The position numbers and the translations under genes were made by a program. A DNA stretch of 57,183 nucleotides from Alphaproteobacteria bacterium (lineage in GTDB: Bacteria > Pseudomonadota > Alphaproteobacteria > SMXP01), in the NCBI GenBank assembly GCA_028285305.1, contig JANQPV010000071.1, positions 1-57,183 of the forward strand. Reading direction: 5' to 3'. The notes under the pieces were generated by a model, which did not search any database, was not told the origin of the DNA, and saw only the letters and a program-made list of their open reading frames with translations. This document shows positions 10,050-55,219 of the stretch, piece after piece. How positions within the stretch are numbered: position 1 is the stretch's first letter; each line of letters starts with the position of its first letter.

Positions 10050-10344
10050 GATCATTGATTGAATTCGAACTGCAAATTGAACCACATCGGGACGGAAGCT
10101 ACGCCAGGAAGTGTGCCATGACATCGCTCACGGCGCTAAGAGAGTCCTGAACACTAGAATTCACACTTCGGCCCAAAAGTGACAAAACAACTATCTCTAC
10201 TGATTGTCTCACGTGATCACATTTCCGACTTAAGCTTCCATCGTTAGTAAGCCCGCATGTCGGTCGGCAAACCGTCTCTAGCTTCACGTCCTCTAGCAAA
10301 GCAGATAGGCTCCTCAAGCAAGAATAATAGCGAGGCGGACGACT
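10050..10344. other. Intergenic region after tRNA-Thr
   Basis: About 295 bases with no recognisable gene, terminator or repeat. It separates tRNA-Thr from the next small membrane protein gene. Confidence 0.5.
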
Positions 10345-39272: not shown

Positions 39273-39466
39273 GTCTTCCTCCTGAAACGGGTCTTTCGTG
39301 AAGCCTAACATGCTTCTTTGGAGTGAAACCATTACAGATGTGATGGATAGCTGGACGGCGCCACTAGTTCGAGACGTCCTGTGGATGAGTTTAAGTGTTT
39401 GGAATTGTTGCTACGCAGCCTAAAACTGCAGTCCCCTTTTGAGCCTAACCAATGCAAGGACGATGC

Positions 39467-40937: not shown

Positions 40938-41738
40938 TTATTGCGCATCGAGGAAAACCAAGCTGCGAATGCCGCCCGATCCGCTTTCCGATTGGATGTT
41001 GTTGCGGATACTGCCCACGACCTTGGGAACTGCCGGATTAAGCTGGACAACCACAGGCCCGCCATCCATGGAAATCTTGCCTGCATGGACCGCTGCTCGG
41101 CAGACGATGCTGTGAAAGGCATACTCATCTGTGCCGTATACGGATCGCGGAGTCATATCCGCAGGCGCCTTCGGGCACATGAACGAAAATTGCTGCCCGG
41201 TCATGTCTTTGTTTGCGAGGCCAGTCGCGGTGAATTTTGTGTCCCATGTCAGACGCGGCATGTACTGGTCCCGCACCGCGTCTGCAGACGAAGAGTCGCC
41301 TGAAACAAAAACAATGCTGCGTTCCGTGGCCGGTAGATCACCCGATGTCACGCCATTGCGGCTAGAGCCCTGATAGCCGTCCGCTCCCGGATTAAGTTGC
41401 GCTATGGCCGTGCCACCGGAAGACGTCATAACGCCCGCGTGCATAGCAGCAACACACAGGGGCGTGTCACTTGGGTACACATCCGTCCCGTATATCGCCG
41501 CATCGGACTGGCCGACCGGGCGCTCAGGACAGTGAAACGTCAGACGCTGACCAATGAATTTGTCTTTGTCCATTTGATATCGATGGATCGTGGTATCCCA
41601 TGTGAATTCCGGAACGACGCGCTCAGACGCCTGTGCGGTCGCGCCGGCAGGTCCACTGAGTCCCATAGCTATTGCGGTCGAAAAGACGGCTGCAGGCAGC
41701 CATGTTCTGTACAGTTTTGCAAAGGAAGAGGTCTTCAT
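40938..41738 (-). CDS. Secreted protein with two tandem LCCL domains
   Basis: The product is 266 aa. A signal peptide (1-38, ending AQAS) is followed by two repeats of about 100 residues, at about 46-146 and 163-264. Both carry the LCCL signature: IYGTDVYPSDTPLCVAAMHA and VYGTDEYAFHSIVCRAAVHA, then a conserved GS.RN motif (QGSSRNGV and VGSIRNNI). Each has a matching Cys pair (C70/C95 and C188/C213). LCCL domains are best known from eukaryotic secreted proteins, and also occur in bacterial exported proteins. ATG 41738 is taken over 41753. It is presumably an adhesin- or ligand-binding periplasmic or extracellular protein. Function unknown. Confidence 0.85.
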   Translation of the reverse strand: MKTSSFAKLYRTWLPAAVFSTAIAMGLSGPAGATAQASERVVPEFTWDTTIHRYQMDKDKFIGQRLTFHCPERPVGQSDAAIYGTDVYPSDTPLCVAAMHAGVMTSSGGTAIAQLNPGADGYQGSSRNGVTSGDLPATERSIVFVSGDSSSADAVRDQYMPRLTWDTKFTATGLANKDMTGQQFSFMCPKAPADMTPRSVYGTDEYAFHSIVCRAAVHAGKISMDGGPVVVQLNPAVPKVVGSIRNNIQSESGSGGIRSLVFLDAQ

Positions 41739-42111
41739 ATCGATTAATCTCACTCACGATTGGATGGAAAATCCCGGAACGAGGCCAAAACGTGGGGAGC
41801 TGGCCCTAAGTCTGGGAGTGCGCGTTCCCGCGGCACGCAAATCAGTTGGGCGCTGTTTGTTTCAGAAGTGGATCGAAAGCCGCCTAGTTTGTTTCAATTG
41901 AGTCAGCCAAACGCTTCGCACCGACAGCATCATGTCTATGATCTCTTTTGGATAACCCCGTCGTTTGCTTGTCCCAACGCCAAGATCCTGAAACACCTTT
42001 CCCTATAGATCCCAAGGAACGCAAGTGCGCCACCGGCAATGCCAATACACTCGATCTTATGATAGGTGAGAGGGCCGATCGCATGATCCTTTAGAAGCGG
42101 GGGGAACTCCA
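41739..42111. other. Intergenic region between the LCCL gene and the catabolic operon
   Basis: 373 bases between two divergent units with no supported gene. It must contain the promoter for the twelve-gene run that starts at 42112, preceded by GGGGGGAAC. I see no convincing promoter hexamers or operator by eye. Confidence 0.5.
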
Positions 42112-42777
42112 ATGCATGTCACCGAAGCCATTAAAGGTCGCTATTCCGTTCGCGGCTTCAAGCCGGAACCGGTACCGGAAGATACGATCCGTGAGGTGAT
42201 TGAAATCGCTCGGCTCGCCCCGTCCAACAGCAATACACAGCCCTGGCATTTGGCAGTCGTTTCTGGAAAGGCGCGGCGCAAACTGCAAGACGCCATCTTT
42301 GAGGAGATCAATTCGGGAACCAAGCCCTACCCTGCCTTCCCGCCGGGGGGCGCCGGCCTCAAAGGCGTCTACAAAGAACGCCAGTATGCCTGTGCTTACA
42401 GTTACTACGGAACTATGGGGATTGAGCGGGACGACAAAAAAGCCCGTGCGGAATTGCTCATGAAGAATTGGGAGTTTTTCGGCGCACCCCATGCAGGATT
42501 TCTCTCCATGCCGGAGACTATGAACCGCGCGAACGCCATCGACCTTGGTATCTTTTTGCAGTCGATCATGCTCCTCTTCGCGGAGCGGGGCGTTTCGTGC
42601 TGTCCCCAAGGGGCACTCGCAAGCTATCCGGGGCCCGTGCGCAAGATCGCAAGCGTGCCCGAAGGCAACGCCATCTTATGCGGCCTGTCTTTCGGGTACG
42701 AAGATGTCGGTGCACAAATCAATGATGTGCGCATGGTCAGAGAACCTCTTGAGACCGTCGCCAGCTTTACGTCTTAG
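42112..42777 (+). CDS. Nitroreductase family FMN oxidoreductase, first gene of the catabolic run
   Basis: The product is 221 aa. RYSVRGFKPEPVPEDTIREV and LAPSNSNTQPWHLAVVSG are the FMN-binding N-terminal motifs, and the C-terminus has SCCPQGALASYPGPVRKIA. It is a different subgroup from the nitroreductase at 27753. GGGGGGAAC lies upstream of the ATG. The MFS gene starts 7 bases after its stop. It may reduce a conjugated enone or enoate of the pathway. Confidence 0.86.
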   Translation: MHVTEAIKGRYSVRGFKPEPVPEDTIREVIEIARLAPSNSNTQPWHLAVVSGKARRKLQDAIFEEINSGTKPYPAFPPGGAGLKGVYKERQYACAYSYYGTMGIERDDKKARAELLMKNWEFFGAPHAGFLSMPETMNRANAIDLGIFLQSIMLLFAERGVSCCPQGALASYPGPVRKIASVPEGNAILCGLSFGYEDVGAQINDVRMVREPLETVASFTS

Positions 42778-42784
42778 GCCTCCC

Positions 42785-44065
42785 ATGACCGACAGCAAAA
42801 ACTATCGCTACTACGTCCTTGGCATTTTGACGCTGACCTACGTGTTCAGCATCATGGATCGGCAGATCATGTCGATCCTCCTCCAAGACATTAAAGAAGA
42901 CTTCGATCTGTCCGACTCTCAGCTCGGCTTTTTGGTCGGCCTGGCCTTCGCGATGTTCTATGCCACGCTCGGCATTCCAATCGCGCGCTTGGCAGACCGA
43001 TGGAACAGGCGCAACATCATCGCCATCGCGGTTGCCATCTGGTCGGCCGCCACAGCCTTATGTGGATTGGCCGCCGGTTTCTGGACTTTGTTTCTCGCCC
43101 GCGTGGGCGTAGGGATCGGCGAGGCTGGCGGCTCCCCGCCCTCCCATTCCATCATCTCGGACTATTTCGAAAAGACGGAACTTTCGCGAGCACTCGCTGT
43201 GTACTCTTTGGGAACAACCCTTGGCGGAGTTGCCGGGTTGCTCATTGGCGGCGCCATTGCCGATGCCTTTGGATGGAGGGCCGCCTTTTTTGCTTTGGGC
43301 ATTCCAGGCGTGCTCTTGGCTCTGATTGTTTACACCACAATCAAAGAACCCGTTCGCGGTCGACTCAATCCGGATTTTGACGCAACCCGGCCGGCGCCAG
43401 ACGTGTTCGCGACGCTTCGTTCGCTCTTACGGAACAAAGCTTACGTGGGAACGAACATAGGCCACACCCTCGCGGTCACAGTTGGCTACGGCTTCTTCTC
43501 ATGGTTTGCAGTGATCCTGATCCGCAATTTTGGGATCAGCAAGACTGAGGCCGCCCAATTGATCAGTACAGCCCTCTTGTTCGGAGGCTTTCCGGGTATC
43601 TTGGCGGGAGGTTTTTTGGCGGACCACCTTGCCAAGCGGTCTCTGGATTGGATGGCGTGGGTCCCCGCGATTGCTCTTGCCATCGCACTGCCAGCCTATC
43701 TGGGCGCCCTGCTCGGTGGCACTCAATTCTTGATGATCGTTTTCTTCACCTTAGGTGCATTCTTCTTCAGCGTTCATCACGCTCCCGCGCTGGCGATTGT
43801 TCAAGCGGTTGTAAATCCGGATCAACGCGCCCTCGCCGCCGCCTTCGTCTTTTTCTTTTCCAACATGTTCGGGCTAGGCCTCGGCCCAGTCATTGTCGGG
43901 GCGCTCAGCGATGCCTTTGCTCTTCAGTCCCCCGATCTTTCTCTAAACTATGCGCTCGCCGTAATCGTGCTCCTGATGATTCCAGCTTCTCTCACCTATG
44001 TTTGGACTGCGAGAGTCTTGAACAGAGACGCGTCAAAAGTTGCCGAGAAGCCATCACATGCATGA
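42785..44065 (+). CDS. MFS transporter, spinster-like
   Basis: The product is 426 aa with twelve predicted helices. TM1 reads YYVLGILTLTYVFSIMDRQI and the conserved loop is GIPIARLADRWNRRNII, followed by GVGIGEAGGSPPSHSIISDY typical of spinster-related carriers. ATG 42785 is used; the earlier in-frame start at 42545 lies inside the nitroreductase gene. It is likely the uptake carrier of the pathway's substrate or an acid intermediate. Confidence 0.88.
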   Translation: MTDSKNYRYYVLGILTLTYVFSIMDRQIMSILLQDIKEDFDLSDSQLGFLVGLAFAMFYATLGIPIARLADRWNRRNIIAIAVAIWSAATALCGLAAGFWTLFLARVGVGIGEAGGSPPSHSIISDYFEKTELSRALAVYSLGTTLGGVAGLLIGGAIADAFGWRAAFFALGIPGVLLALIVYTTIKEPVRGRLNPDFDATRPAPDVFATLRSLLRNKAYVGTNIGHTLAVTVGYGFFSWFAVILIRNFGISKTEAAQLISTALLFGGFPGILAGGFLADHLAKRSLDWMAWVPAIALAIALPAYLGALLGGTQFLMIVFFTLGAFFFSVHHAPALAIVQAVVNPDQRALAAAFVFFFSNMFGLGLGPVIVGALSDAFALQSPDLSLNYALAVIVLLMIPASLTYVWTARVLNRDASKVAEKPSHA

Positions 44066-44134
44066 TGGAGCGCTTGCACATCTTTACGGCGCCCGCCCCA
44101 TGCCGCCATATAGAGTCAAGGACGGAGACTTAAC

Positions 44135-45571
44135 ATGACTGTTCAATGGAACCACTTCATCGCAGGAAAGGAAGCCAAGCCCCTATCAGGCGACTATGTC
44201 CATTCCTTCACACCGAAAGATGGGGAGACCTACGCCCAAGTCGCCAAAGGATCGGCACCTGACGTGGACAGTGCCGTTGATGCCGCCGCATCAGCCCTGA
44301 AAGAGTGGAAGAGCCGCAAACCGATCGAGCGCGGCCGCATCCTCCTCGCAATCGCCCAAAAGATCAGGGAACAGTCGAGTGAACTCTCTCAAATTGAATG
44401 CGCGGAGACGGGCAAACCCGGCTGGCAAGCCCCGGCTGAGATCGAAATCGCGGCGCAGTACTTCGAATTCTATGGCGGACTGTGCAATCTCTTCCAGGGC
44501 GAAAAGATCGATCTGGGAGCCGGCTATCATTCTTACACTGTACGCGAACCATTCGGTGTGGTCGGCGTGATCACGCCGTGGAACGCCCCCCTCAACCAGG
44601 CCGCCCGCGGGATCGCCCCGGCTCTGGCCGTCGGCAATACAGTGGTGTCGAAACCCTCTGAATTCACATCGGGCACCACGCTGGCCGTCGCCAAACTGGC
44701 CGTCGAGGAATGCGGACTACCCCCAGGCGTGTGGAATGTGGTCTTAGGCGAAGGACCCGAATGTGGAGCAGCTATCGTCTCACATCCACAAGTTCGAAAG
44801 GTGGCGTTTACGGGCAGCGTCCGCGCTGGGAAAGAGATCAGCCATATCGCCGCTGACCGGCTTATTCCGCTTACGCTGGAATTGGGTGGCAAATCCCCCA
44901 ACATCATCTTTGAAGATGCCGATTTGGCCCAGGCCATTCCCGGCGCCATTCGCGGATTTATCGTCAATGCCGGCCAGATCTGTTCGGCGGGCACCCGACT
45001 TCTGGTGCATTCTTCAATTCACGATCAGGTGGTGAGCGGACTTGTGGAAGGCCTTAAGCAAATCAAAGTCGGCCCAGGTGACGACGCCATGGTTGGCGCG
45101 ATCACGACCCAAGCTCAGTATGAACGGGTGAAAAGCTATTTCGATCTCGCCAAACAAGAAGGCGCCGTCGCGCAACTGGGCGGCCAAGTCGAAAACAAAG
45201 ATGAATACGGAGGAGGCTGGTATCTTCCGCTCACTGTTTTTACAGGCGTCACTAACGATATGCGAATCGCGCAAGAAGAGATCTTTGGACCCGCCATTGT
45301 CGTGATCCCATTCGAGTCTGAAGATCAAGCTATTGCCATTGCAAATGACACCGACTACGGCCTCGCCGCCGGGCTGTGGACCCAAAACCTCTCACGGGCT
45401 CACCGGGTGGCTGCCGAACTACAGGCCGGCCAAGTCTTTGTGAATGAATATCAAGCAGGCGGCGTAGAGACGCCGTTTGGTGGCTACAAGCAGTCCGGAT
45501 ACGGACGAGAGAAAGGCATTGAAGCCCTCCATCATTATGCGCAGCTTAAGTGTGTAACCATCAAACTTTAG
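44135..45571 (+). CDS. NAD(P)-dependent aldehyde dehydrogenase
   Basis: The product is 478 aa. The catalytic residues are C283 (NAGQICSAGTRL) and E249 (LELGGKSPN), with N150 in the oxyanion site (PWNAPLNQAARG) and K173 at the cofactor site. Length is normal. GGAGACTTAAC precedes the ATG. The SDR gene starts ten bases after its stop. It should oxidise the aldehyde made from a P450 or SDR product to the acid ready for CoA activation. Confidence 0.93.
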   Translation: MTVQWNHFIAGKEAKPLSGDYVHSFTPKDGETYAQVAKGSAPDVDSAVDAAASALKEWKSRKPIERGRILLAIAQKIREQSSELSQIECAETGKPGWQAPAEIEIAAQYFEFYGGLCNLFQGEKIDLGAGYHSYTVREPFGVVGVITPWNAPLNQAARGIAPALAVGNTVVSKPSEFTSGTTLAVAKLAVEECGLPPGVWNVVLGEGPECGAAIVSHPQVRKVAFTGSVRAGKEISHIAADRLIPLTLELGGKSPNIIFEDADLAQAIPGAIRGFIVNAGQICSAGTRLLVHSSIHDQVVSGLVEGLKQIKVGPGDDAMVGAITTQAQYERVKSYFDLAKQEGAVAQLGGQVENKDEYGGGWYLPLTVFTGVTNDMRIAQEEIFGPAIVVIPFESEDQAIAIANDTDYGLAAGLWTQNLSRAHRVAAELQAGQVFVNEYQAGGVETPFGGYKQSGYGREKGIEALHHYAQLKCVTIKL

Positions 45572-45580
45572 GAACCGATA

Positions 45581-46450
45581 ATGAAAGTTGAAGGCAAGAC
45601 TGCTGTTGTGACCGGCGGCGCATCCGGCATCGGCGCAGCCATCGTGCGCGCTTTGATCTCGCGGAACTGTACCGTGATCATCGCAGACTACGAAAAAGAG
45701 AAGGCCGAAGCGCTGGCGAGCGAACTCGGAGGCAAGGCCTCCGCGCTCCAGTTCGATGCCGCAGATGTCAAATCAGTGGCAGCATTGGCTGAACAGACTT
45801 GGTCTCAGACCGGCGGTGTTGATCTTGTGTTTGCAAATGCGGGCATCAACCTCACAGGTCCCCTGCTTCAAGCCACGCCCGAACAATTCGATTGGATCTT
45901 CGCTGTCAACACGCGAGGAGCATGGGCCACGTGCAAGGAATTTGGGAGCAGGATGATCGAAAACGGCCGTGAAGGCCATCTAGTTATCACAGGATCCGAA
46001 CATAGCCTTGGCATGCAGCATTCAGGCGCAGGCTTCTACACGGCAACCAAGACCGCGCTCCTCGGCATCGCCGATGTCATGCGGGACGAGCTACCAGGCA
46101 CCGTGGGCATTAGTCTCCTCTGCCCCGGCCTCACGTCCACAGAACTCTATGATGCGGATCGGTTCGGCGTCCTGCCCGAAGGCCCCGCAGGTGCAAAGGA
46201 CCTGGGCGCCAAGATCATGGGCAAAGGCATGAGCGCAGCCGACGTGGCGGAGGCTGCAATCGCCGGTGTTGAGCGCGGCGATTTCTACATCGTCACCCAT
46301 GCTATTTCTTATCCGCCCGCGGAAAAACGATATGAAGAAATTAAAGCAGCGTTCGCAGCCCAGGCTCCCCTGAAGAAAGACTCTGAAAAATACTCCGTAC
46401 CACGAGTGGTTTCTGAAACACTCACCGAGTTGCAGGGGTCCAAATCTTGA
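45581..46450 (+). CDS. Short-chain dehydrogenase/reductase
   Basis: The product is 289 aa. The cofactor motif is TGGASGIG (11-18), NAG is in ANAGINL, and the active site S139, Y153, K157 is in TGSEHS and GFYTATK. The substrate loop and an extended C-terminus (about 215-289) suggest a substrate larger than ethanol-sized alcohols. Its stop TGA overlaps the TTG start of the GST gene. With the aldehyde dehydrogenase upstream it can carry an alcohol to an acid. Confidence 0.92.
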   Translation: MKVEGKTAVVTGGASGIGAAIVRALISRNCTVIIADYEKEKAEALASELGGKASALQFDAADVKSVAALAEQTWSQTGGVDLVFANAGINLTGPLLQATPEQFDWIFAVNTRGAWATCKEFGSRMIENGREGHLVITGSEHSLGMQHSGAGFYTATKTALLGIADVMRDELPGTVGISLLCPGLTSTELYDADRFGVLPEGPAGAKDLGAKIMGKGMSAADVAEAAIAGVERGDFYIVTHAISYPPAEKRYEEIKAAFAAQAPLKKDSEKYSVPRVVSETLTELQGSKS

Positions 46451-47148
46451 TTACGCTCTATCAATTCGCAACCTCTCCTTTCACGGAGAAAGTCCGCCGG
46501 GCAATGAACTATAAGGGCATTGCATTCGACGTGCACGAAGTTGCCCGCGCCGAAGTTCCCCGGGGCAAGTACAAAGACGTAAGCCCGACGGGGAAATTCC
46601 CCGCGGTCAAGGACGGCGACCAGGCAATTTGGGATTCAACCGACATCATCTATCACTTGGAAGCCAAACATCAAGGTCCTTCCCTCGTGCCGGGTCCCCC
46701 CCGCGATGCGGCTCTTGCCCATGCGATCGAAGAATGGGCGGACGAAAGCCTCTACTTCTACGAAATGACGATGCGGCTGTCGTGGGAGCACAATTTGGAA
46801 GAAGCCCTGGACGAATTCGCCGCCACGATGCCGGGCGTACCCCAAGATCAGCTCAAAGAGCTTATACTCCAAGGCGTTGGACAGCTCACCCAAACCCAAG
46901 GTGTGGGCCGCAAACCTCGCGATCAGGTCGTGGCCGATACGCAGCGCCATTTCCAGCATCTGGATGCACTCTTGGACGGCCGAAACTGGTTGGTCGGTGA
47001 GGCCCTTTCTTTTGCTGACTTGGCGGTCATCGCCCAAGTGAACGCTCTCCTTTACGCCAGAGAAGCCCGAGAGGCTTTTGGCAAAACAAAGAACATCAAA
47101 GACTGGATGGCTCGCGTTGATCGCGTGGCCCCGAAGGGAGACAACTAG
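46447..47148 (+). CDS. Glutathione S-transferase family protein
   Basis: The product is 233 aa. The thioredoxin-like domain begins MITLYQFATSPFTEKVRRAM with S10 at the catalytic Ser position. KFPAVKDGDQAIWDSTDIIY holds the gamma-glutamyl-binding Asp-Ser pair. The helical C-terminal domain has the ADLAVIAQ motif (FADLAVIAQVNALLY). The start is TTG overlapping the upstream TGA. In this operon it could open an epoxide made by the P450, as GST proteins do in isoprene degradation. That is inference. Confidence 0.88.
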   Translation: MITLYQFATSPFTEKVRRAMNYKGIAFDVHEVARAEVPRGKYKDVSPTGKFPAVKDGDQAIWDSTDIIYHLEAKHQGPSLVPGPPRDAALAHAIEEWADESLYFYEMTMRLSWEHNLEEALDEFAATMPGVPQDQLKELILQGVGQLTQTQGVGRKPRDQVVADTQRHFQHLDALLDGRNWLVGEALSFADLAVIAQVNALLYAREAREAFGKTKNIKDWMARVDRVAPKGDN

Positions 47149-47149
47149 G

Positions 47150-48403
47150 ATGACGGCGTTACCCATAGATACCAATCTCGCCAATGCGGATCTGATCCCC
47201 AACCTTGGCGGCCCGCCTCATGAACTCTTTGCCAAATGGCGTGCGCAAGATCCGGTCCACTGGAATCCGCCTTCGCCGGACTACGGAACTGATATGATCG
47301 GCGCATCCCTTTCGAAGGGATTTTGGGTGCTGACCCGCTATCAGGACGTCTACGACGTATCGCGCAATCAAGAGCTCTTCACATCTCACGACGGCAGCCC
47401 GGTCATTTGGGATTTCGAACCGGAACAGCTCGCCATCCAACAAGCGGGCATGATGGGCATGCAAGCCGAACAGCATGCCAAGGTAAAACGACTGGTCATG
47501 CCGCCTTTTTCACCGAAGGAACTTAAGGCTTTCGAACCGGACATTGAGCGCGTAGCCGCCGAGATCATCGATGATGTTGCACACAAAGGATCGTGCGAGT
47601 TCGTTTTCGATGTGGCCTCAAAACTCCCGGTCTACACGTTCTGTAAGATTTTGGGCGTTCCCGATGAACGCCGGGACGAGGTTTACAAACTAGGGAATGC
47701 CACAGCCGACGTTGAAAACCGCCGCGGCGCCTCTGACGAGGCTCCCGTCTTCCAACTTTTTGCCATCGCGCAAGAACTCTCCGAAGAGAAACGTAGAAAT
47801 CCTGACAACTCGATGTTGAGCCGGTTTGTGAACGGAGAGGTCGACGGGGAGAAGCTGGATGAAATGAACATCAATATGTTCTTTGTCACGTTATCCATCG
47901 CCGGTCATGAGACGACCAGAGGGACAGCCGGTCATTTCATCCGCTTAATGAATGAATATCCTGATCAGTACGAGGTACTCCTAAGCGATCTCGACACGTA
48001 TCTCCCTCGCGCCATAGATGAAGTTTTAAGGTATTCTCCGCCGGTCATCAAATTCCGGCGCACCGCGACGGCTGACACCAAGATCGGCGATCAAGAGATC
48101 AAGGCGGGTGACAAGATCTATTTGTCCTATCCCGCAGCCAACCGGGATCCCGAAGTCTTTGAGGATCCGGACCGGTTCGATATCACCCGCGAAAATGCAG
48201 GCAAACACCTATCGTTCGGGACGGGCCCTCACGTGTGTCTGGGTGCCCGCTTAGCGCAGATCCAGCTGCGCGCCCTTCTGAAGCAAGTCTACACGCGCAT
48301 CCCGGACATCCGCATTTCCGGCGAGATGGAGATGATGCGCTCGATCTGGTTCAATGCCATCCTGAAAATGCCCGTTACGTTTACACCGGAGAAGCGCCCA
48401 TGA
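47150..48403 (+). CDS. Cytochrome P450
   Basis: The product is 417 aa, a soluble bacterial class. The I-helix oxygen site is AGHETT (251-256), the ExxR motif is E291-VL-R294, and the heme ligand is C363 in SFGTGPHVCLGARLA. The region after the Cys, PDIRISGEMEMMRSIWFNAI, resembles the C-terminus of the CYP124/125/142 and related branch, which often acts on methyl-branched isoprenoid or steroid chains. GGGAG precedes ATG 47150. The stop overlaps the MaoC start as ATGA. Redox partners are not seen nearby. Confidence 0.93.
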   Translation: MTALPIDTNLANADLIPNLGGPPHELFAKWRAQDPVHWNPPSPDYGTDMIGASLSKGFWVLTRYQDVYDVSRNQELFTSHDGSPVIWDFEPEQLAIQQAGMMGMQAEQHAKVKRLVMPPFSPKELKAFEPDIERVAAEIIDDVAHKGSCEFVFDVASKLPVYTFCKILGVPDERRDEVYKLGNATADVENRRGASDEAPVFQLFAIAQELSEEKRRNPDNSMLSRFVNGEVDGEKLDEMNINMFFVTLSIAGHETTRGTAGHFIRLMNEYPDQYEVLLSDLDTYLPRAIDEVLRYSPPVIKFRRTATADTKIGDQEIKAGDKIYLSYPAANRDPEVFEDPDRFDITRENAGKHLSFGTGPHVCLGARLAQIQLRALLKQVYTRIPDIRISGEMEMMRSIWFNAILKMPVTFTPEKRP

Positions 48404-48912
48404 CTGACGTCGAGGAAATCAAGAGCTCTGCCGTCTTTCGGCCCAAAGGCCAAATGTATGAGGAATTCGAAGTCGGTAGTGTGATGAACCATCATTGGGG
48501 CCGGACCATTACCGAGGCAGACACAATTCAATTCTCGCATCTGACCCTCAGCTACAATCCGCTCTATTTTAATCGCGAGTACGCCAAGTCCCTTGGCCAC
48601 CCGGATATCGTGGTCAATCCACAACTCGTCTTTAACGTTATATTGGGGCTCACGGTCGAGGACTGTTCGGAGGGATTGGGTGGACCATTCTTGGGGGTGT
48701 TTGAACTGAACTATCACGAACCTGTCTATCCCGGCGACACGCTAACAGCGCGTTCAACAACCACGGACAAACGTCTGTCGGAGAGCAGCGAAGGCCGCGG
48801 GATCGTCAGTTGGCACTCGGAAGGCTTTAATCAGCATGGCAACCGTGTGATTGACTTCAAAAGAAGCAATTTGTCATTCTTTAAAGCCGCCGAACGCACG
48901 AGGGAGGGATAG
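48400..48912 (+). CDS. MaoC-like hot-dog protein 1 (altered active site)
   Basis: The product is 170 aa, a hot-dog fold MaoC-like dehydratase/hydratase (FEVGSVMNHHWGRTITEADT, later LNYHEPVYPGDTLTARS). The catalytic Asp/His of (R)-hydratases would fall at residues 51 and 56, but here they are S51 and Y56 (HLTLSYNPLYFN). The ATG overlaps the P450 stop by four bases. The next gene starts one base after the stop and encodes a paralogue. A heteromer with that partner, or a changed reaction, is likely but unproven. Confidence 0.85.
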   Translation: MTDVEEIKSSAVFRPKGQMYEEFEVGSVMNHHWGRTITEADTIQFSHLTLSYNPLYFNREYAKSLGHPDIVVNPQLVFNVILGLTVEDCSEGLGGPFLGVFELNYHEPVYPGDTLTARSTTTDKRLSESSEGRGIVSWHSEGFNQHGNRVIDFKRSNLSFFKAAERTREG

Positions 48913-48913
48913 A

Positions 48914-49426
48914 ATGGGTAAACTCGCAGATCTCACCAGTTCCGATACCTATTTCGAAGACTTTGATGTCGGACAGACCATCCGGCATGCGCGTGGAAAG
49001 ACTGTCACCAATCTGGAAAACGTCAACTTCACAAACATGGTGATGAACACCGCCCAGGGGCACTTTAACGAAGACCTGATGGCCAAAGCAGGCGGCTTCG
49101 CGAAGGACGCCTCCCAAGACCGGGCGAGCAAAGTGATTTCCTACGGCGGCGTGAACTTTTCATTGGTCCTTGGACTAGCGTCTCAAGACACAATCGAAAA
49201 CGCCCTTGCCGAGATCGGCCTTGATAACATTCGTCTAAAGCACCCCGTGTTTCATGGAGATACGATCTACGCCTATTCTCGTGTCCTGGAGAAACGCGAT
49301 AGCGATAGAGAAGACGCAGGCATTGTCGTCTTTCAGCACTGGGGCCTCAACCAAGACGACAAGCTCGTCGCCGAGGTGCAGCGAACCGCTCTCATCAAGC
49401 GCAAAAGTCACTGGGCAGACAAATGA
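48914..49426 (+). CDS. MaoC-like hot-dog protein 2
   Basis: The product is 170 aa with the same hot-dog layout as its neighbour (FEDFDVGQTIRHARGKTVTN, later LKHPVFHGDTIYAYS). The catalytic positions are N45 and H50 (MVMNTAQGHFNED), so His is kept but Asp is Asn. This subgroup is related to proteins found beside CitE-type lyases. GAGGG lies shortly before ATG 48914. The stop overlaps the CaiB gene start as ATGA. Probable role: hydration of an enoyl-CoA, alone or with MaoC-like protein 1. Confidence 0.86.
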   Translation: MGKLADLTSSDTYFEDFDVGQTIRHARGKTVTNLENVNFTNMVMNTAQGHFNEDLMAKAGGFAKDASQDRASKVISYGGVNFSLVLGLASQDTIENALAEIGLDNIRLKHPVFHGDTIYAYSRVLEKRDSDREDAGIVVFQHWGLNQDDKLVAEVQRTALIKRKSHWADK

Positions 49427-50637
49427 CCCTCGGCGCACTCAGCGATATTCGTATCATCGACCTCACACAAATGCTGGCAGGTCCATACGGCACGATGATG
49501 CTCGCCGATCACGGGGCAGAGGTGATCAAAGTTGAACCTCCCAAAACCGGCGACATGACGCGGCCGGGAGGCCCTTTCCATGAAGGCGACGAACAGCGAA
49601 CCCATGGCGGCTACTTTCAAAGCGTTAACCGCAACAAGAAAAGCGTCGTCCTTGACCTCAAGACCGAAGAAGGCAAAGCCGCACTGAAGGCCCTCGTCAA
49701 AGATGCCGACGCGGTGACAGAGAACTTTCGTGTTGGTGTGATGGACAAATTGGGCCTCAACTATGAGGTTCTCAAGGAGATCAATCCCAAGCTTGTATAC
49801 GGAACGCTGCGCGGCTTCGGCGATCCGCGCACGGGCAAGTCACCCTATGCGGAATGGCCGGCTTTTGATGTGGTCGCCCAGGCTATGGGCGGCATTATGG
49901 GGATAACGGGTCCCGATCCCGAAACCCCCACCAAAATCGGTCCCGGCGTTGGCGATATCGTGCCCGGCATGATGCTGGCCTTCGGCGTCTTGATGGGCAT
50001 CCATCACGCCAGGCGGACCGGCGAAGGACAGTTTGTAGACGTATCCATGGTGGACAGCATCTTGGCCGTCTGTGAGCGCATGGTTTATCAGCACTCCATT
50101 CAGGACAAAGTAGCCCGCCCCGAAGGCAATGGCCACCCGTTCATTTGCCCCTTTGGTATGTTCCCCGCAAAAGATGGATTTGTCACGATCGCGGCCCCCT
50201 CCCAAGACTTCTTCGACATTTTGTGCGATCTGCTCGGTGCCCCACACCTTAAAGCGGACGAGCGATTCTCCAACCCTGCCGATCGGGGAAGGCTCAAACA
50301 GGACCTCATTGTAGAACTCAGCGCCGTCACATCCAGCTTCACTAAGAAAGAGCTGCAAGACCGCTTGGGCGGCAAAATTCCCTTTGGCCCTGTTATGCAA
50401 ATGGATGAAGTGGCGGCGGATCCGCACTTTGCCATTCGGGAAATGGTCGTCCCGGTCGAACAGCCTGGGTGCGAGCGGGAAACGCGTATTGCCGGCGTGC
50501 CGATCAAACTCACGGCCACACCCGGCGGCGTGCGTACGCGAGGTCCTTTCTTAGGAGAGCATACAGAAGACATTCTGCGGGACGTCGGCGTGAGTGAGGA
50601 ACAGATAGAATTGATACGAATGAAGTTGGAAATCTAA
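49423..50637 (+). CDS. CaiB/BaiF (class III) CoA-transferase
   Basis: The product is 404 aa, normal length. N-terminal motif IIDLTQMLAGPYGTMMLADH is followed by NRNKKSVVLDLKTEEGKA, and the catalytic Asp is D178 in GPGVGDIVPG. The second domain has GQFVDVSMVDSILAV and GNGHPFICPFG. It moves CoA between acids through an aspartyl-acyl intermediate. In this operon it should activate the acid made by the aldehyde dehydrogenase, or recycle CoA between pathway acids. A 91-bp repeat lies between it and the lyase gene. Confidence 0.92.
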   Translation: MTLGALSDIRIIDLTQMLAGPYGTMMLADHGAEVIKVEPPKTGDMTRPGGPFHEGDEQRTHGGYFQSVNRNKKSVVLDLKTEEGKAALKALVKDADAVTENFRVGVMDKLGLNYEVLKEINPKLVYGTLRGFGDPRTGKSPYAEWPAFDVVAQAMGGIMGITGPDPETPTKIGPGVGDIVPGMMLAFGVLMGIHHARRTGEGQFVDVSMVDSILAVCERMVYQHSIQDKVARPEGNGHPFICPFGMFPAKDGFVTIAAPSQDFFDILCDLLGAPHLKADERFSNPADRGRLKQDLIVELSAVTSSFTKKELQDRLGGKIPFGPVMQMDEVAADPHFAIREMVVPVEQPGCERETRIAGVPIKLTATPGGVRTRGPFLGEHTEDILRDVGVSEEQIELIRMKLEI

Positions 50638-50638
50638 T

Positions 50639-50729
50639 TGTCATTGCGAGCGGAGCGAAGCAATTCAAGGCCAAGGATGCGTGATGTCCACTGGATTGCC
50701 GCAGTTGGTAACACGGCCTCGAAATAACA
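50639..50729. repeat. MITE-like or REP-type palindromic repeat inside the operon
   Basis: The ends are imperfect inverted repeats, TGTCATTGCGAG (50639-50650) and the reverse complement of CTCGAAATAACA (50718-50729), 10 of 12 bases matching. The internal parts CAATTCAAGG and CTGGATTGCC are also partly inverted. TCATTGCGAGCG...AGCGAAGCAAT repeats of this kind are, from memory, widespread in bacterial genomes. It fills the only sizeable gap in the CaiB-to-acyl-CoA-dehydrogenase stretch. It may fold as a hairpin in the transcript. Confidence 0.65.
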
Positions 50730-50755
50730 GCTAAAGCGCAAGGAAAGGAAACACA

Positions 50756-51667
50756 ATGAGCAAGAAACCGATGAGACTAAGACGTTCGCAACTGGCCGTA
50801 CCCGGCGTAAGCGAAAAGATGCTCACCAAGGCGGCCGCCTCGGATGCCGACCACGTATTCTGCGACCTGGAAGATGCCGTGGCTCCCTCAGCCAAGCCGG
50901 GCGCCCGCAAAACCATCGTTGAGGCGCTGAATGGCCTTGATTGGGGCAAGACGGTCAGATGCGTGCGCGTCAATGATGTGACCACGGAATGGTGTTTCGA
51001 GGACATCATCGAAGTGGTGGAAGGCGCCGGTGAAAATCTGGACACGATCATGCTCACGAAGCCGATGGACGCAGGCGATGTTTTATTCGTGGACAAATTA
51101 CTGACTCAGCTCGAAAAGAAACTGGGCCTCAAGAAGAGAATTGGCCTGGAATGCCTCATCGAAGAAGTTGAGGCCATGCGGAATGTTTGGGACATCGCTC
51201 ATTGTTGTGAACGCTTGGAATGCCTCATCTTCGGCATGGGGGACTACGCCGCCTCCCAAGGGATCGTGGTCAAGAATATTGGCGGTGAACATGCCTATCC
51301 AGGCGATATCTTTCACTATCCCAGATACCAGCTGACCATTGCGTGTCGCGCGGCGGGGATTGACCCGGTTGATGGCCCCTTCGGTAATTTCAAGAATGAA
51401 GAGGCCTACAGGGAGGAATGCCGACGTGCTCTGACATTGGGCATGGTGGGCAAGTGGGCGATTCATCCTTCGCAGATCGCGCCGGCTCTGGACGTGTTCT
51501 CGCCCGACCAAAAGGAAGTAGACTTCGCCCGAGAGATCATCGAAGTTTACCGCAAAGCGGAAGCCGAAGGCATCGGCTCCGTCGGACACAAGGGGACCAT
51601 GGTAGATGCTGCCTCGGCCCGGCTTTTTCAGAACACAGTAGACCGCGCCGATCTCATTGGCATGTAG
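50756..51667 (+). CDS. CitE/HpcH-family lyase (Mcl/methylmalyl-CoA or beta-hydroxyacyl-CoA lyase-like)
   Basis: The product is 303 aa, TIM barrel. R71 is in RVN, the Mg ligands are E132 (GLECLIE) and D163 (FGMGDYAAS), and DGPFGNFKN and GKWAIHPSQI are typical of malyl/methylmalyl-CoA lyases and relatives. AAGGAAAGGAAACACA precedes the ATG. It should cleave a beta-hydroxyacyl-CoA by retro-aldol/Claisen chemistry into two shorter products. The preceding MaoC pair and CaiB gene supply the steps before it. Exact substrate unknown. Confidence 0.9.
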   Translation: MSKKPMRLRRSQLAVPGVSEKMLTKAAASDADHVFCDLEDAVAPSAKPGARKTIVEALNGLDWGKTVRCVRVNDVTTEWCFEDIIEVVEGAGENLDTIMLTKPMDAGDVLFVDKLLTQLEKKLGLKKRIGLECLIEEVEAMRNVWDIAHCCERLECLIFGMGDYAASQGIVVKNIGGEHAYPGDIFHYPRYQLTIACRAAGIDPVDGPFGNFKNEEAYREECRRALTLGMVGKWAIHPSQIAPALDVFSPDQKEVDFAREIIEVYRKAEAEGIGSVGHKGTMVDAASARLFQNTVDRADLIGM

Positions 51668-51682
51668 GAGGAATGTAAGCAG

Positions 51683-52939
51683 ATGACCGTCGCCTTTTCG
51701 CGCGTCGAAGACGCCCTCACAATCGATCCGACGATCGCCTGGCGCATGCAGTTTGATCAGTTGAACATAGGTCTCGAAATCGAGGACGGAGCGGATCAAA
51801 CCGTCCTGATCGGGCCGGAGCGCATCGAGCTCAAAGAGGGGGTCTCGGCCGACAGCCACGTGGTTCTGACGGCAAAAGCAAGCGCTTGGGACGAGTTTGC
51901 AAAAGACGAACCTGCTGTTGGATACCAAACCATCGCGTCGCTGATCGAAGAGCAGCATATGCGCGTGCGGGCCGGAGATATTATGGACTATGCCCGTAAT
52001 GCCATGATGCTGGAAAAGCTCTTCGCAACCTTGCGGCAACCCAAGACGCTGGACGCAGCACCTCATGCGGAAATCGAGATCGAAGACATAACCGGTCGCT
52101 ATATCCGCATGAATTTGGAAGGCCGTCCGCACAGGATCTATTTTGAAGAGGCGGGCCAGGGCACGCCGCTTCTGTGTTTGCACACGGCAGGCGCCGATGG
52201 CAGACAATATCGCGCTTTGCTGAATGACCCAGAAATCACAAAGGACTTTCGGGTCATTGTGTTTGACTTGCCGTGGCATGGCAAATCCTCCCCGCCTCCC
52301 GGCTTCCACTTGGAACACTACAGGCTGACCACGGACAAATATGTCGACACCGTCATGGCGTTCAAGAACGCTCTTAACTTGGATCAGCCGGTGGTGATGG
52401 GCTGCTCAATTGGTGGACGTGCAGTCCTGCATTTGGGATTGCGCCACGGTTCCGCCTTCAAAGCAGCGATTGGATTGCAGTCGGCCATGCATGCCGAAAG
52501 CCGTTCACAAACTCAGATGGGGCTTCTGGACAAACATGTGCTCTACCGGCCGGATGTTCATGGCGGCGAGGTTTCTGCCGCTTCTGTGATGGGCATCATG
52601 TCTCCCAATTCGCCGGCGAAAGATGAATGGGAAACGCTGTGGCATTATATGCAGGGCGGCCCCGGCATCTTTGCAGGGGATCTCTACTACTACTTCGTCG
52701 ACGGAGACCTCAGAAACGGTCTTGTCGATGGGTACGACACGGATGAATGCCCGCTTTACTTGCTCACCGGTGAGTACGATCTCTCCGCCTCGCCGGAAAT
52801 GACAGCGGAGTTGGCGACCGCAGTAGGCGCCACCCACTTCGAAGTGATGAAAGGACTGGGTCACTTCCCCATGTCGGAGAACCCGGAGCAATTCCGCAAG
52901 TATCTCCTTCCGGTCCTTGAAAAGATAAAGGCGCAATAA
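51683..52939 (+). CDS. Fusion: N-terminal SCP2-like domain plus alpha/beta hydrolase
   Basis: The product is 418 aa. Residues 1-120 resemble a small lipid-binding SCP2-type domain (VVLTAKASAWDEFAKDEP, then RVRAGDIMDYARNAMMLEKL). Residues 140-418 are an alpha/beta hydrolase with LLCLHTAGADGRQYRALL, nucleophile S242 in GCSIGG, an Asp in GEYDLSAS and a His in LGHFPMS. GGAGGA lies upstream of the ATG. The stop is immediately followed by the acyl-CoA dehydrogenase start. It may be a lipid-acyl thioesterase or esterase. Confidence 0.82.
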   Translation: MTVAFSRVEDALTIDPTIAWRMQFDQLNIGLEIEDGADQTVLIGPERIELKEGVSADSHVVLTAKASAWDEFAKDEPAVGYQTIASLIEEQHMRVRAGDIMDYARNAMMLEKLFATLRQPKTLDAAPHAEIEIEDITGRYIRMNLEGRPHRIYFEEAGQGTPLLCLHTAGADGRQYRALLNDPEITKDFRVIVFDLPWHGKSSPPPGFHLEHYRLTTDKYVDTVMAFKNALNLDQPVVMGCSIGGRAVLHLGLRHGSAFKAAIGLQSAMHAESRSQTQMGLLDKHVLYRPDVHGGEVSAASVMGIMSPNSPAKDEWETLWHYMQGGPGIFAGDLYYYFVDGDLRNGLVDGYDTDECPLYLLTGEYDLSASPEMTAELATAVGATHFEVMKGLGHFPMSENPEQFRKYLLPVLEKIKAQ

Positions 52940-54154
52940 ATGGTACAGCTTGTCCAACTCAACACTACGCCTCGCGGCACGCCGGGCAGCGGCTATATGA
53001 CCGAAGAACGGCTCATGTTCCAACAAATGGCCCGGGACTTCACGAACAACGAAGTCACGCCCATCGCCAATATGCTTGACCCTGAACAAGGGGACATCCC
53101 CCGAGAGCTCATCGACAAGATGGGTGAGCTGGGCTTTTTTGGCATTCTTATTCCCGAAGAGTTGGGGGGACTTGGCCTGGGCGGCTTTGAGTACTGCCTC
53201 GTGGCGGAGGAATTAGCCCGCGGCTGGATGAGTGTCGCAAGCATCATCGCCCGCGGCAACAGCTTCTACCGAAGCATTCAGGGAACAGAAGAAGAAAAAC
53301 GCCGTAAGACCGAACTCATGGCTCAAGGTCAGTACTTGGGAGCCGCAGCCCTCTCCGAGCCACAGACTGGCTCCGACTTGTCCAGCGTCGCCTGCCGGGC
53401 GCGACGGGACGGTGATGACTGGGTGGTCACCGGCAACAAGTATTGGTGCACTTTTGCGGACGGCGCAGACTTCATCAGTGTCCTCTGCCGTATTGATGAT
53501 CCGGACGCGGATCCGGATGCCCACCCCAAGACCACCAGCGTGACAATCGAAAAACCTCGCGGCGAGCTTCCCCAAGGCTGTAGCGGCTCTCCTATCCCGA
53601 AGATTGGCTACTTTGGCTGGAAGACCTGGGAGCTTAGCTTCGACGAGACCCGTGTTCCCGCACCGCCCATTGAAAAATCGAGCGGGCGTGGCTGGCAGGC
53701 TGCGGCAGCGGGCCTCGAATTGGCACGCGCTCACACGGCCGCCCGCTCCATTGGGCTTGCCCAAGCTGCCCTTGATCACGCGGCGGAGTACGCCAAGGAA
53801 CGGGTTCAGTTCGGCCAACCCATTTCTGATTTCCAGGCCATCCGCTTTAAGATCGCGACGATGGCGACCGAGATCGAGGCGGCCCGCCAGCTGATGTATC
53901 ACACCTGTGCCAAAATTGATGCAGGTGAACCTGCCAAAACTGAAACATCCATGTGCAAATATTTTGCTTCGGAAATGTCGGAACGCGTCACTTCGGAGGC
54001 GCTCCAAATTCTCGGCGGCGCCGGCTATACAACGCTCCATCCGATTGAACGCTATTGGCGGGACGCGCGCCTAACAAAGATCTTCGAGGGCACCTCGGAA
54101 ATCCAACAGCGCATCATTTCCGATCAACTCCTGGGCAAACCCACCCGGCGGTGA
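52940..54154 (+). CDS. Acyl-CoA dehydrogenase, last gene of the catabolic run
   Basis: The product is 404 aa, classical ACAD. LGAAALSEPQTGSDLSSVAC is the FAD/substrate motif, and RVQFGQPISDFQAIRFKIA is conserved. The catalytic Glu is E383 in KIFEGTSEIQQR. The ATG directly follows the TAA of the hydrolase gene, so translation is coupled. It introduces the alpha-beta double bond needed by the MaoC-like hydratases upstream. Branched or cyclic acyl-CoA is a fair guess. Confidence 0.93.
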   Translation: MVQLVQLNTTPRGTPGSGYMTEERLMFQQMARDFTNNEVTPIANMLDPEQGDIPRELIDKMGELGFFGILIPEELGGLGLGGFEYCLVAEELARGWMSVASIIARGNSFYRSIQGTEEEKRRKTELMAQGQYLGAAALSEPQTGSDLSSVACRARRDGDDWVVTGNKYWCTFADGADFISVLCRIDDPDADPDAHPKTTSVTIEKPRGELPQGCSGSPIPKIGYFGWKTWELSFDETRVPAPPIEKSSGRGWQAAAAGLELARAHTAARSIGLAQAALDHAAEYAKERVQFGQPISDFQAIRFKIATMATEIEAARQLMYHTCAKIDAGEPAKTETSMCKYFASEMSERVTSEALQILGGAGYTTLHPIERYWRDARLTKIFEGTSEIQQRIISDQLLGKPTRR

Positions 54155-54454: not shown

Positions 54455-55219
54455 CTACGCCACCGCTGCAGCAACCCGCTCCGCCGGTGTCTGTTCGGTC
54501 AGGGCGCGCAGAGATGTCAGGATCATATTCTTCTTCGCTTTAATCCGCTCATTGGGACCACCGATCGCAACTGCAAATTTGGATTTGCCCGATGCCGCCG
54601 GGAGCAACATGGCAAGCGCCCCCGCCCCCCGCGTCGTTTCCCCCACCGAATAGGCAAACCCGTTTCGTCTGACAAAGGCGACATGTTGCTCCGCTTGCGA
54701 GGCGGTTTCCCGCCAATACGGATTGCTGCTTTCAGCTTGGGTGCGGCGAATAATCTTTCCGATCTCCTTATCGGCCTCTTGGGCAAGCAAGGTCCATCCT
54801 GTGGAACAACAGCACAGAGGGCGCAGGAGCCCCGAGGCGACATGCAGGCGCAGCGGATCCGCACTGACATGCACCATCAGGTACTGGGCAAAAATTCCAT
54901 TGCGCATGGCAAGTATGGCTGACTCGCCAGTCTGCTCTGCAATCTTCTGAAGGAGTTCGGGAACCACCCCAACCTGTTGCTCCTGATTGAGGAGCCAGGT
55001 GCCGAGGAACGTGATCCGCGGTGTCGGAAAGTAGGTCCGCGCCGTCTCGTCTTGCTCAAGATACCCGAGATGGACGAGAGACTTTGTCAACATAGAGGTG
55101 CTGGACTGTGGGATCGACAGACCTTCCATGAGCTCAGTGATGGTCAAGGGCCTTTGTTGTTCGGCAAAGAGCTCAAAGACGCGCAGCGCGCGGGCTGCAG
55201 ACTTGATGGGGTCGGACAT
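54455..55219 (-). CDS. IclR-family transcriptional regulator
   Basis: The product is 254 aa. The N-terminal winged helix (about 5-65) starts SAARALRVFELFAEQQRPLT and has the recognition helix IPQSSTSMLTKSLVHLGYLE. The C-terminal effector domain (about 80-254) includes the LRLHVASGLLRPLCCCSTGW segment, Cys-rich where many relatives have GLPLHATATGKA. It faces the catabolic run from its far end and is the best candidate regulator. IclR proteins often repress or activate degradation genes in response to a pathway acid. Confidence 0.9.
   Translation of the reverse strand: MSDPIKSAARALRVFELFAEQQRPLTITELMEGLSIPQSSTSMLTKSLVHLGYLEQDETARTYFPTPRITFLGTWLLNQEQQVGVVPELLQKIAEQTGESAILAMRNGIFAQYLMVHVSADPLRLHVASGLLRPLCCCSTGWTLLAQEADKEIGKIIRRTQAESSNPYWRETASQAEQHVAFVRRNGFAYSVGETTRGAGALAMLLPAASGKSKFAVAIGGPNERIKAKKNMILTSLRALTEQTPAERVAAAVA

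Follow-up and report, generated by a model that had tools for sequence, protein, structure and literature searches.

Closest Described Systems

The closest described counterpart of the locus is the ich-mcd-mmgE-ict-ccl cluster, used by Cupriavidus necator and Pseudomonas aeruginosa to degrade itaconate and methylsuccinate, the enzymology of which has been published (PMC12290011, PMC9875883). This cluster consists of a CoA-transferase, an acyl-CoA dehydrogenase (ACAD), an MmgE/PrpD protein, a MaoC hydratase, and a CitE-type lyase. The same families occur in the window, i.e., the whole analysed stretch of 57,183 nucleotides (alphaproteobacterial contig JANQPV010000071.1). The original prediction, made from the sequence without database searches, described a catabolic run matching no recognisable pathway; this does not hold for its lower half (MaoC, ACAD, PrpD, CaiB, and CitE), the content of which is that of the published cluster.

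The sequence comparison used a cluster from Cupriavidus oxalaticus (L113) whose gene content equals that of the published one. The window ACAD, CaiB, and PrpD are 63%, 55%, and 42% identical to their L113 counterparts, respectively, while the hydratase and the lyase share only 24–32% (26% for CitE). Among PDB structures, 3qqw and 3r4i are the nearest to the lyase from L113. Unlike in the known cluster, the window hydratase is split over two genes, CitE groups beside malyl-CoA lyases, PrpD is encoded on the opposite strand at a distance of 2.8 kb, a dicarboxylate TRAP transporter is absent from the run, and P450, glutathione S-transferase (GST), short-chain dehydrogenase (SDR), aldehyde dehydrogenase (ALDH), SCP2-hydrolase, and nitroreductase genes are added. 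For every characterised enzyme of mesaconate or itaconate metabolism in NCBIfam, the window proteins stay below the cut-off. RipABC, the Yersinia-type system of itaconate degradation, was considered and rejected, with scores of 92–96 bits versus 340 for RipB/Ich and 158 versus 375 for RipC/Ccl; a search for RipC in 200 proteobacterial genomes gave one weak match below the cut-off, in a different neighbourhood.

Given that the gene content equals that of the published cluster, the lower module could use external itaconate, mesaconate, or methylsuccinate as in Cupriavidus, with the upper genes merely broadening the range of precursors. We consider this somewhat unlikely, as the run carries neither a TRAP nor a TTT transporter, only an MFS and a TonB-type open reading frame (ORF), and the hydratase and lyase come from other subfamilies.

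Individual parts of the locus resemble other known systems. Two window proteins, MaoC1 and MaoC2, match the two domains of mesaconyl-CoA hydratase (Mch), an enzyme of both the ethylmalonyl-CoA pathway and the methylaspartate cycle of haloarchaea, and the best NCBIfam model for CaiB is the succinyl-CoA:mesaconate CoA-transferase; however, the window proteins score below every NCBIfam cut-off. The window CitE forms a sister clade to the (beta-methyl)malyl-CoA lyase, Mcl. In addition to these genes, the genome encodes a distinct Mcl (C16), which scores 390 bits against 5ugr, and, together with another CitE, a hydratase in fused form (C5). The solved sequences closest to the window P450 are of the mycobacterial CYP125 and CYP124 types, omega-hydroxylases of steroids and methyl-branched lipids, but its partners form a diacid module, and no steroid-ring or steroid degradation genes were found in the 12 kb run. 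The isoprene iso cluster (glutathione route) likewise combines GST, SDR, ALDH, and a family III CoA-transferase with an oxygenase, which is a diiron monooxygenase rather than a P450, and the window GST scores 59 bits against IsoI, for which the cut-off is 300. A literature search on P450/MaoC/CitE sets, isoprenoid–methylsuccinate links, and P450 clusters of sponge symbionts did not reveal a description of the combined set.

Organisation of the Locus

As originally described, the run comprises twelve ORFs at positions 42112–54154, all on the plus strand, with ATGA or TTGA overlaps and short gaps; these measure 0–118 bp. The spacing is 8 bp between the nitroreductase and MFS genes, 69 bp between MFS and ALDH, 9 bp between ALDH and SDR, and 1 bp between both GST and P450 and MaoC1 and MaoC2. 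SDR and GST overlap via TTGA, while P450 and MaoC1, as well as MaoC2 and CaiB, overlap via ATGA. Gaps of 118 bp (CaiB to CitE), 15 bp (CitE to hydrolase), and 0 bp (hydrolase to ACAD) complete the run, and the adjoining genes on both sides (40938–41753 and 54455–55219) are located on the minus strand. Scans of the sequence for promoters and terminators yielded fewer sites than in shuffled sequences and are thus uninformative. A run of genes in the same direction is ordinary by itself; what goes beyond chance is that the set is kept in other genomes.

The gene set extends past these twelve genes. It includes the MmgE/PrpD gene at 37950–39332 (minus strand), 2.8 kb upstream of the run, and an IclR-type regulator (54455–55219, minus strand; PF09339 and PF01614), which probably controls the operon and whose relatives adjoin the six-gene module described below in loci L019–L021, L038–L044, L051, and L077. 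Next to it, an ORF cut near the window end (55395–57092, minus strand) resembles TonB-dependent receptors as judged from its protein sequence and possibly functions in substrate uptake. Large receptor-sized ORFs also flank loci L044 and L083.

Genes of the Lower Half

The families of the twelve genes were assigned by Pfam and NCBIfam profile searches, which confirmed the original family calls and added a nitroreductase, not named there, as the first gene. The calls of two separate MaoC hydratases need revision. MaoC1 (48400–48912, plus strand) aligns with positions 15–163 of the PF19315 model (91.8 bits) and MaoC2 (48914–49426, plus strand) with positions 215–353 (77.7 bits), the model length being 353. 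Mch is a double-hotdog protein with the NTAxxHF motif in the second domain. MaoC1 lacks the catalytic histidine, has an invariant NPxYxN according to a residue check, and matches domain 1 of 4e3e, while MaoC2 carries NTAxxHF, with the histidine invariant in 26 of 26 sequences, and matches 4e3e and 8hgn. MaoC1 and MaoC2 are thus predicted to make up a single mesaconyl-CoA-hydratase-type enzyme, MaoC1 as its N-terminal and MaoC2 as its C-terminal half. The single-chain Mch equivalog NF041625 (560 bits) was not reached by these halves, which score 96 and 77 bits.

The CaiB/BaiF family III CoA-transferase (49423–50637, plus strand; PF02515, 404 bits) has the catalytic Asp178, conserved in all 32 sequences compared, and its score against the succinyl-CoA:mesaconate CoA-transferase model is 437 bits versus a cut-off of 700. 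The CitE-type acyl-CoA C–C lyase (50756–51667, plus strand) matches 5ugr and 4l9y with 235 bits each. On the phylogenetic tree its clade, sister to malyl-CoA/beta-methylmalyl-CoA lyase, is set apart from Mcl with support values of 100/98 and 98/89, and residues R71, E132, D163, and D284 are conserved. It is followed by an alpha/beta hydrolase (51683–52939, plus strand; PF00561, 60 bits) with a GCSIGG nucleophile elbow and an SCP2-like N-terminal domain. A profile search of the window hydrolase itself did not detect the SCP2 domain (PF02036) of the original call; it was found in the 57% identical ortholog in L052 (23.9 bits, cut-off 21.3). Relatives of this hydrolase occur in the sponge symbiont AqS3 (58%) and in L051/L052 (56–57%). 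The genes around other relatives of the SCP2-hydrolase did not hint at a substrate. The ACAD (52940–54154, plus strand) matches NCBIfam ACAD subfamilies, none above the cut-off; it is a homologue of the Cupriavidus cluster enzyme, and its catalytic Glu383 is a glutamate in 32 of 32 sequences.

The MmgE/PrpD protein, a probable epimerase of the same pathway, scores 167 bits to 7bra and 165 bits to the IDS epimerase 2hp0, and is 49–51% identical to the ACAD-adjacent PrpD proteins in L051/L052. The catalytic residues of methylsuccinate isomerase and IDS epimerase are conserved (H, D, H, Y, H, K, K), the second being Asp, not Glu. Overall, the lower half appears to be a known kind of diacid route, altered by a split hydratase and a lyase resembling malyl-CoA lyase.

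Genes of the Upper Half

The first gene encodes a nitroreductase-family flavoprotein (42112–42777, plus strand; PF00881, 106 bits) with only partial NCBIfam matches, every one below the cut-off; a 58% identical relative adjoins a CitE ortholog in L080. Relatives of the MFS transporter (42786–44065, plus strand; PF07690, 181 bits) with 47–48% identity are present in clusters L044, L077, and L083. The ALDH (44135–45571, plus strand; PF00171, 552.7 bits) contains GQICSAGTR and ELGGKSP motifs and has relatives in clusters of AqS3 (53%), L128 (60%), and L060 (68%), and the SDR (45581–46450, plus strand; PF00106, 132 bits), with TGGASGIG and YTATK, has relatives in L047 (57%) and AqS3 (55%). The GST (46447–47148, plus strand; PF13417, 65.6 bits) has FzlA and IsoI as top NCBIfam matches, both far under the cut-off. 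Its 69–72% identical relatives occur in L047, L081, and AqS3, and those in L047 and AqS3 are P450-adjacent.

The cytochrome P450 (47150–48403, plus strand; PF00067, 109.5 bits) carries the haem site FGTGPHVCLG and has relatives of 64–67% identity in L047 and AqS3. Its best solved relative is 8vxi, 'CYP125MRCA' (347.8 bits), with 221 bits to Mycobacterium tuberculosis CYP125. CYP125 and CYP124 types act on methyl-branched side chains, and a methyl-branched hydrophobic compound is therefore a plausible target, which makes the methyl-branched or isoprenoid substrate suggested originally a reasonable one. However, with 45 P450-like stretches across this genome, one extra P450 is not rare. In genome G227, a 56% identical P450 has only a distant ALDH beside it.

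The CYP125-like P450, the SCP2-like lipid-binding domain of the hydrolase, and the adjoining TonB-type receptor would also suit a single large substrate, processed in sterol or isoprenoid style by P450 attack, CoA activation, dehydrogenation, hydration, and cleavage of the side chain by the lyase, with no free C5 diacid. Such a scheme is unlikely. The CitE-family lyases characterised to date act on esters of the malyl, citramalyl, or HMG type, requiring a carboxylate beside the hydroxyl. The six-gene module also occurs without the P450, beside TRAP or ABC transporters, which points to small carboxylates, and the substrates of PrpD enzymes have four-carbon dicarboxylate backbones (PMC12290011).

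Conservation and Probable Transfer between Classes

The module of six genes (MaoC1, MaoC2, CaiB, CitE, ACAD, and PrpD) is kept in Alpha-, Beta- and Gammaproteobacteria and was found in 16 of the 20 alphaproteobacterial genomes having the lyase. It adjoins transporters in Sphingomonas, Variovorax, Tistrella, and Pseudosulfitobacter. The extension P450-GST-SDR-ALDH-hydrolase is likewise conserved: the gammaproteobacterial sponge symbiont AqS3 (L095/L131) has all eleven genes of the module and extension inside 19 kb, and the alphaproteobacterium G350 (L047) has seven of them inside 12 kb. The neighbourhood P450-MaoC-MaoC-CaiB-CitE-SCP2/hydrolase-ACAD, proposed earlier as a search target, was thus recovered in AqS3 and in part in G350, and this synteny supports the view of the genes as one functional unit. 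Isolated CitE orthologs also occur in four alphaproteobacterial genomes of small size; of the three checked, two lack ACAD and a close MaoC2. In 274 genomes from the class to which G459 belongs, the clusters recovered were either of the window type or consisted of an ACAD-CaiB pair. Altogether, the run appears to be a real, conserved catabolic unit.

The locus could instead consist of two adjacent operons with separate functions, one for branched diacids that runs from MaoC1 to ACAD and another, unrelated to it, for detoxification that runs from the nitroreductase to P450. Consistent with this, P450 and GST are absent from most lower modules elsewhere, and in Hyphomonas beringensis (L077) the lower module is accompanied by MFS and ALDH with no P450 or GST within 20 kb. 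Nevertheless, P450, GST, SDR, CitE, ACAD, PrpD, and CaiB co-occur, in differing gene orders, in three genomes that represent two classes, the P450 and MaoC1 genes overlap in the window, and the identity between G350 and AqS3 is raised alike in both halves (74–79% upper, 76–89% lower), making two unconnected operons improbable.

The cassette proteins of AqS3 and G350 are 74–89% identical, far above the 51% shared by their GyrB proteins, so that an exchange of the set between classes is probable. The window set is a mosaic, as its MaoC1/MaoC2 (48–59%) and PrpD (37–39%) are more distant from the AqS3 and G350 copies than most of its other genes.

Proposed Pathway

We lean slightly towards the run being a catabolic operon that spreads horizontally and is built of two layers, a branched-diacid lower one and a P450-led upper one. 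This proposal is based on gene families, conserved catalytic residues, and conserved co-occurrence, and the upper substrate is deduced from the P450 and oxidoreductase families only. By homology, the six-gene module would degrade a 2-substituted succinate or fumarate via CoA esters. PrpD would interconvert the enantiomers of the 2-substituted succinate, the CaiB transferase would form its CoA ester, and ACAD would convert the latter to a 2-substituted fumaryl-CoA of the mesaconyl-CoA type. The split hydratase MaoC1–MaoC2 would then produce a malyl-CoA type ester. Its cleavage by CitE would release an acyl-CoA together with a 2-oxo acid, either propionyl-CoA with glyoxylate or acetyl-CoA with pyruvate. 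Since CitE-type lyases cleave malyl-CoA-type esters, the intermediates are most likely substituted succinyl-, fumaryl-, and malyl-CoA, not long fatty acyl-CoA. In the upper layer, a methyl-branched hydrophobic compound could be imported by the receptor and MFS and hydroxylated by the CYP125-like P450, and the alcohol could be oxidised to the acid by SDR and ALDH; GST, the SCP2-hydrolase, and the nitroreductase may perform further steps delivering a branched diacid to the lower layer.

A bolder version can be offered tentatively: a new aerobic pathway in which a P450 and a glutathione-dependent enzyme would act on a branched hydrophobic metabolite, perhaps a terpenoid, to give a succinate or fumarate with an alkyl substituent. 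An alkylfumaryl-CoA hydratase of two different subunits and an alkylmalyl-CoA lyase of a new kind would then cleave this product, the pathway being common to marine and sponge-associated Alpha- and Gammaproteobacteria by horizontal transfer.

The set would join P450 attack on a hydrophobic compound to the CoA-dependent diacid chemistry of itaconate and methylsuccinate users, in a field where the natural origin of methylsuccinate was called unclear until recently (PMC12290011). It also provides a mesaconyl-CoA hydratase that is putatively heterodimeric, as well as a CitE clade in which this analysis found no characterised member. Being common to two classes and present in the sponge symbiont AqS3, for which dual RNA-seq exists (PMC9385839), the set gives a testable entry to the diet of such bacteria.

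Organisation of the Gene Cluster

The window is located on contig C7 in an alphaproteobacterial assembly of 5.4 Mb that is 95% complete. Its sequence bore out the original prediction of twelve plus-strand genes with short gaps and ATGA/TTGA overlaps at 42112–54154, encoding, in order, a nitroreductase, an MFS protein, aldehyde dehydrogenase (ALDH), SDR, glutathione S-transferase (GST), cytochrome P450, MaoC1, MaoC2, CaiB, CitE, an SCP2-hydrolase, and acyl-CoA dehydrogenase (ACAD); the nitroreductase class of the first gene is a correction to that prediction. Intergenic gaps range from 0 to 118 bp, four-base overlaps (ATGA or TTGA) were read directly from the sequence at three junctions, and minus-strand genes bound the run on each side. 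Directly upstream, a minus-strand gene (40938–41753) encodes a protein with two matches to the LCCL domain (PF03815, 127.7 bits), which is known mainly from eukaryotic secreted proteins.

A near-palindromic short element, CATTGCGAGCGGAGCGAAGCAAT, is located at 50642–50664 inside the 118-bp CaiB–CitE gap and looks like intergenic repeats widespread in other bacteria. A search of the 5.4 Mb assembly allowing one mismatch revealed a single further copy of its 22-bp core, at C5:206290, and no copies of the reversed control.

A Predicted Split Hydratase

The two MaoC genes had been taken for two hydratases, a view that the domain alignments do not support. On the 353-position Pfam mesaconyl-CoA hydratase model, MaoC1 spans positions 15–163 and MaoC2 positions 215–353, and in the double-hotdog structures 4e3e and 8hgn the first domain aligns with MaoC1 and the second with MaoC2. 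Judged by these alignments, MaoC1 and MaoC2 are the halves of one enzyme of the mesaconyl-CoA hydratase type, cut in two. The second-domain motif NTAxxHF is invariant in MaoC2 except for a Thr to Ser replacement in 3 of 26 sequences, while MaoC1 lacks the His at the motif position and carries an invariant NPxYxN there. A fused hydratase and another CitE are encoded on contig C5 of the same genome.

Lower Module and Its Distribution

The best model for CaiB was succinyl-CoA:mesaconate CoA-transferase (437 bits, below the cut-off of 700), and the nearest relatives of CitE were malyl-CoA/beta-methylmalyl-CoA lyases (235 bits to structures 5ugr and 4l9y). On the CitE tree the window-type lyase forms a separate, well-supported clade; a different lyase, on contig C16 of the same genome, scores 390 bits to 5ugr and clusters with the solved malyl-CoA/beta-methylmalyl-CoA lyases. 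The catalytic residues of CaiB (Asp), ACAD (Glu), and CitE (Arg/Glu/Asp/Asp) are kept. The predicted SCP2 domain went undetected in the window hydrolase itself, but a 57% identical ortholog scores above the Pfam cut-off.

A MmgE/PrpD gene is located at 37950–39332 on the minus strand. Its product retains the residues described as catalytic in methylsuccinate isomerase and IDS epimerase and is 49–51% identical to PrpD proteins whose genes directly adjoin ACAD at two other loci (L051/L052). In the Cupriavidus metallidurans CH34 megaplasmid (L114), the MmgE/PrpD gene of a diacid cluster is interrupted, with parts at 10174–10548 and 14053–15054, about 3.4 kb apart.

MaoC1, MaoC2, CaiB, CitE, ACAD, and PrpD together match the gene content of the published itaconate/methylsuccinate cluster, whose activities are CoA-transferase, methylsuccinyl-C4-CoA dehydrogenase, methylsuccinate isomerase, hydratase, and citramalyl-CoA lyase (PMC12290011; PMC9875883). 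A Cupriavidus oxalaticus plasmid cluster (L113), tied to the published one by gene content, shares 63% (ACAD), 55% (CaiB), and 42% (PrpD) identity with the window proteins, whereas its hydratase is fused and only 24–32% identical to the window halves, and its lyase 26% identical to CitE. By these identities, the window transferase, dehydrogenase, and epimerase are homologous to those of the plasmid, while the hydratase and lyase belong to other subfamilies.

The arrangement MaoC-(ACAD)-MaoC-CaiB-CitE was also found on plasmids from Sphingomonas panacis, Variovorax, Tistrella, and Pseudosulfitobacter; all but one of these plasmids also carry MmgE/PrpD together with TRAP or ABC transporters. Among 385 alphaproteobacterial genomes, CitE (E < 1e-90) occurs in 20, and module genes adjoin it in 16; in the other four, all small (1.7–1.8 Mb), it is solitary, with ACAD and MaoC2 relatives 22 kb away in one. 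ACAD and a close MaoC2 were absent from two checked genomes with solitary CitE (G330 and G022), and therefore CitE probably has a different use in these small-genome marine Rhodobiaceae. Solitary orthologs from this group (L048, L049, L082, L084–L092, L102) are 76–80% identical to the window CitE.

A second, distant CitE (30–35%) adjoins the window-type gene in several clusters (L083 10911–11810, L093 8547–9431, L019 19016–19879, and L099), so the paired lyases may act in series or on different substrates.

Upper Part and Probable Transfer between Classes

The sponge symbiont AqS3, a gammaproteobacterium associated with Amphimedon queenslandica (PMC9385839), carries eleven genes (GST, P450, SDR, CitE, ACAD, PrpD, CaiB, SCP2-hydrolase, ALDH, MaoC1, and MaoC2) inside a 19-kb stretch of a single contig (L095/L131), in an order different from that of the window. 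Between its P450 and SDR genes (L095 6456–7895) is a FAD protein, glycolate/2-hydroxyacid-oxidase-like on reading its sequence, which may process a 2-oxo or a 2-hydroxy acid formed by the lyase. An alphaproteobacterium of another family (G350) carries GST, two P450s, SDR, CitE, ACAD, PrpD, and CaiB within 12 kb (L047), with MaoC1/MaoC2 on a different contig, and a Rhodobiaceae locus (L081) has GST, CitE, ACAD, and PrpD. GyrB of AqS3 is 51% identical to that of both G350 and the window genome; cassette proteins of AqS3 are 74–89% identical to those of G350 and 39–78% to those of the window. The simplest reading, drawn from identities and not from a reconciled tree for every gene, is that the cassette moved between classes and that the window lineage has different MaoC1/2 and PrpD copies.

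Proposed Pathway

The P450 scores 348 bits to the solved structure 8vxi and 221 bits to Mycobacterium tuberculosis CYP125. The genome contains 45 stretches matching cytochrome P450, or about 40 genes, which appears unusually many for a proteobacterium. The CYP125-like P450 would oxidise a methyl branch, and SDR and ALDH would convert the alcohol to the acid, so that the upper steps would end in a branched diacid; this could then be epimerised, activated, dehydrogenated, hydrated, and cleaved. GST, nitroreductase, and the SCP2-hydrolase might conceivably contribute steps such as cis-trans isomerisation, reduction of an ene or nitro group, and hydrolysis of an ester or lactone. In chemical terms, isoprenoid diacids with a 3-methyl branch would, on beta-oxidation (for instance by way of 3-methyladipate), finish at methylsuccinyl-CoA. 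The resemblance of the hydratase to mesaconyl-CoA hydratase and of the lyase to malyl-CoA/beta-methylmalyl-CoA lyase suggests a C1 route with propionyl-CoA and glyoxylate as products; the shared ACAD and CaiB suggest a C4 route yielding acetyl-CoA and pyruvate.
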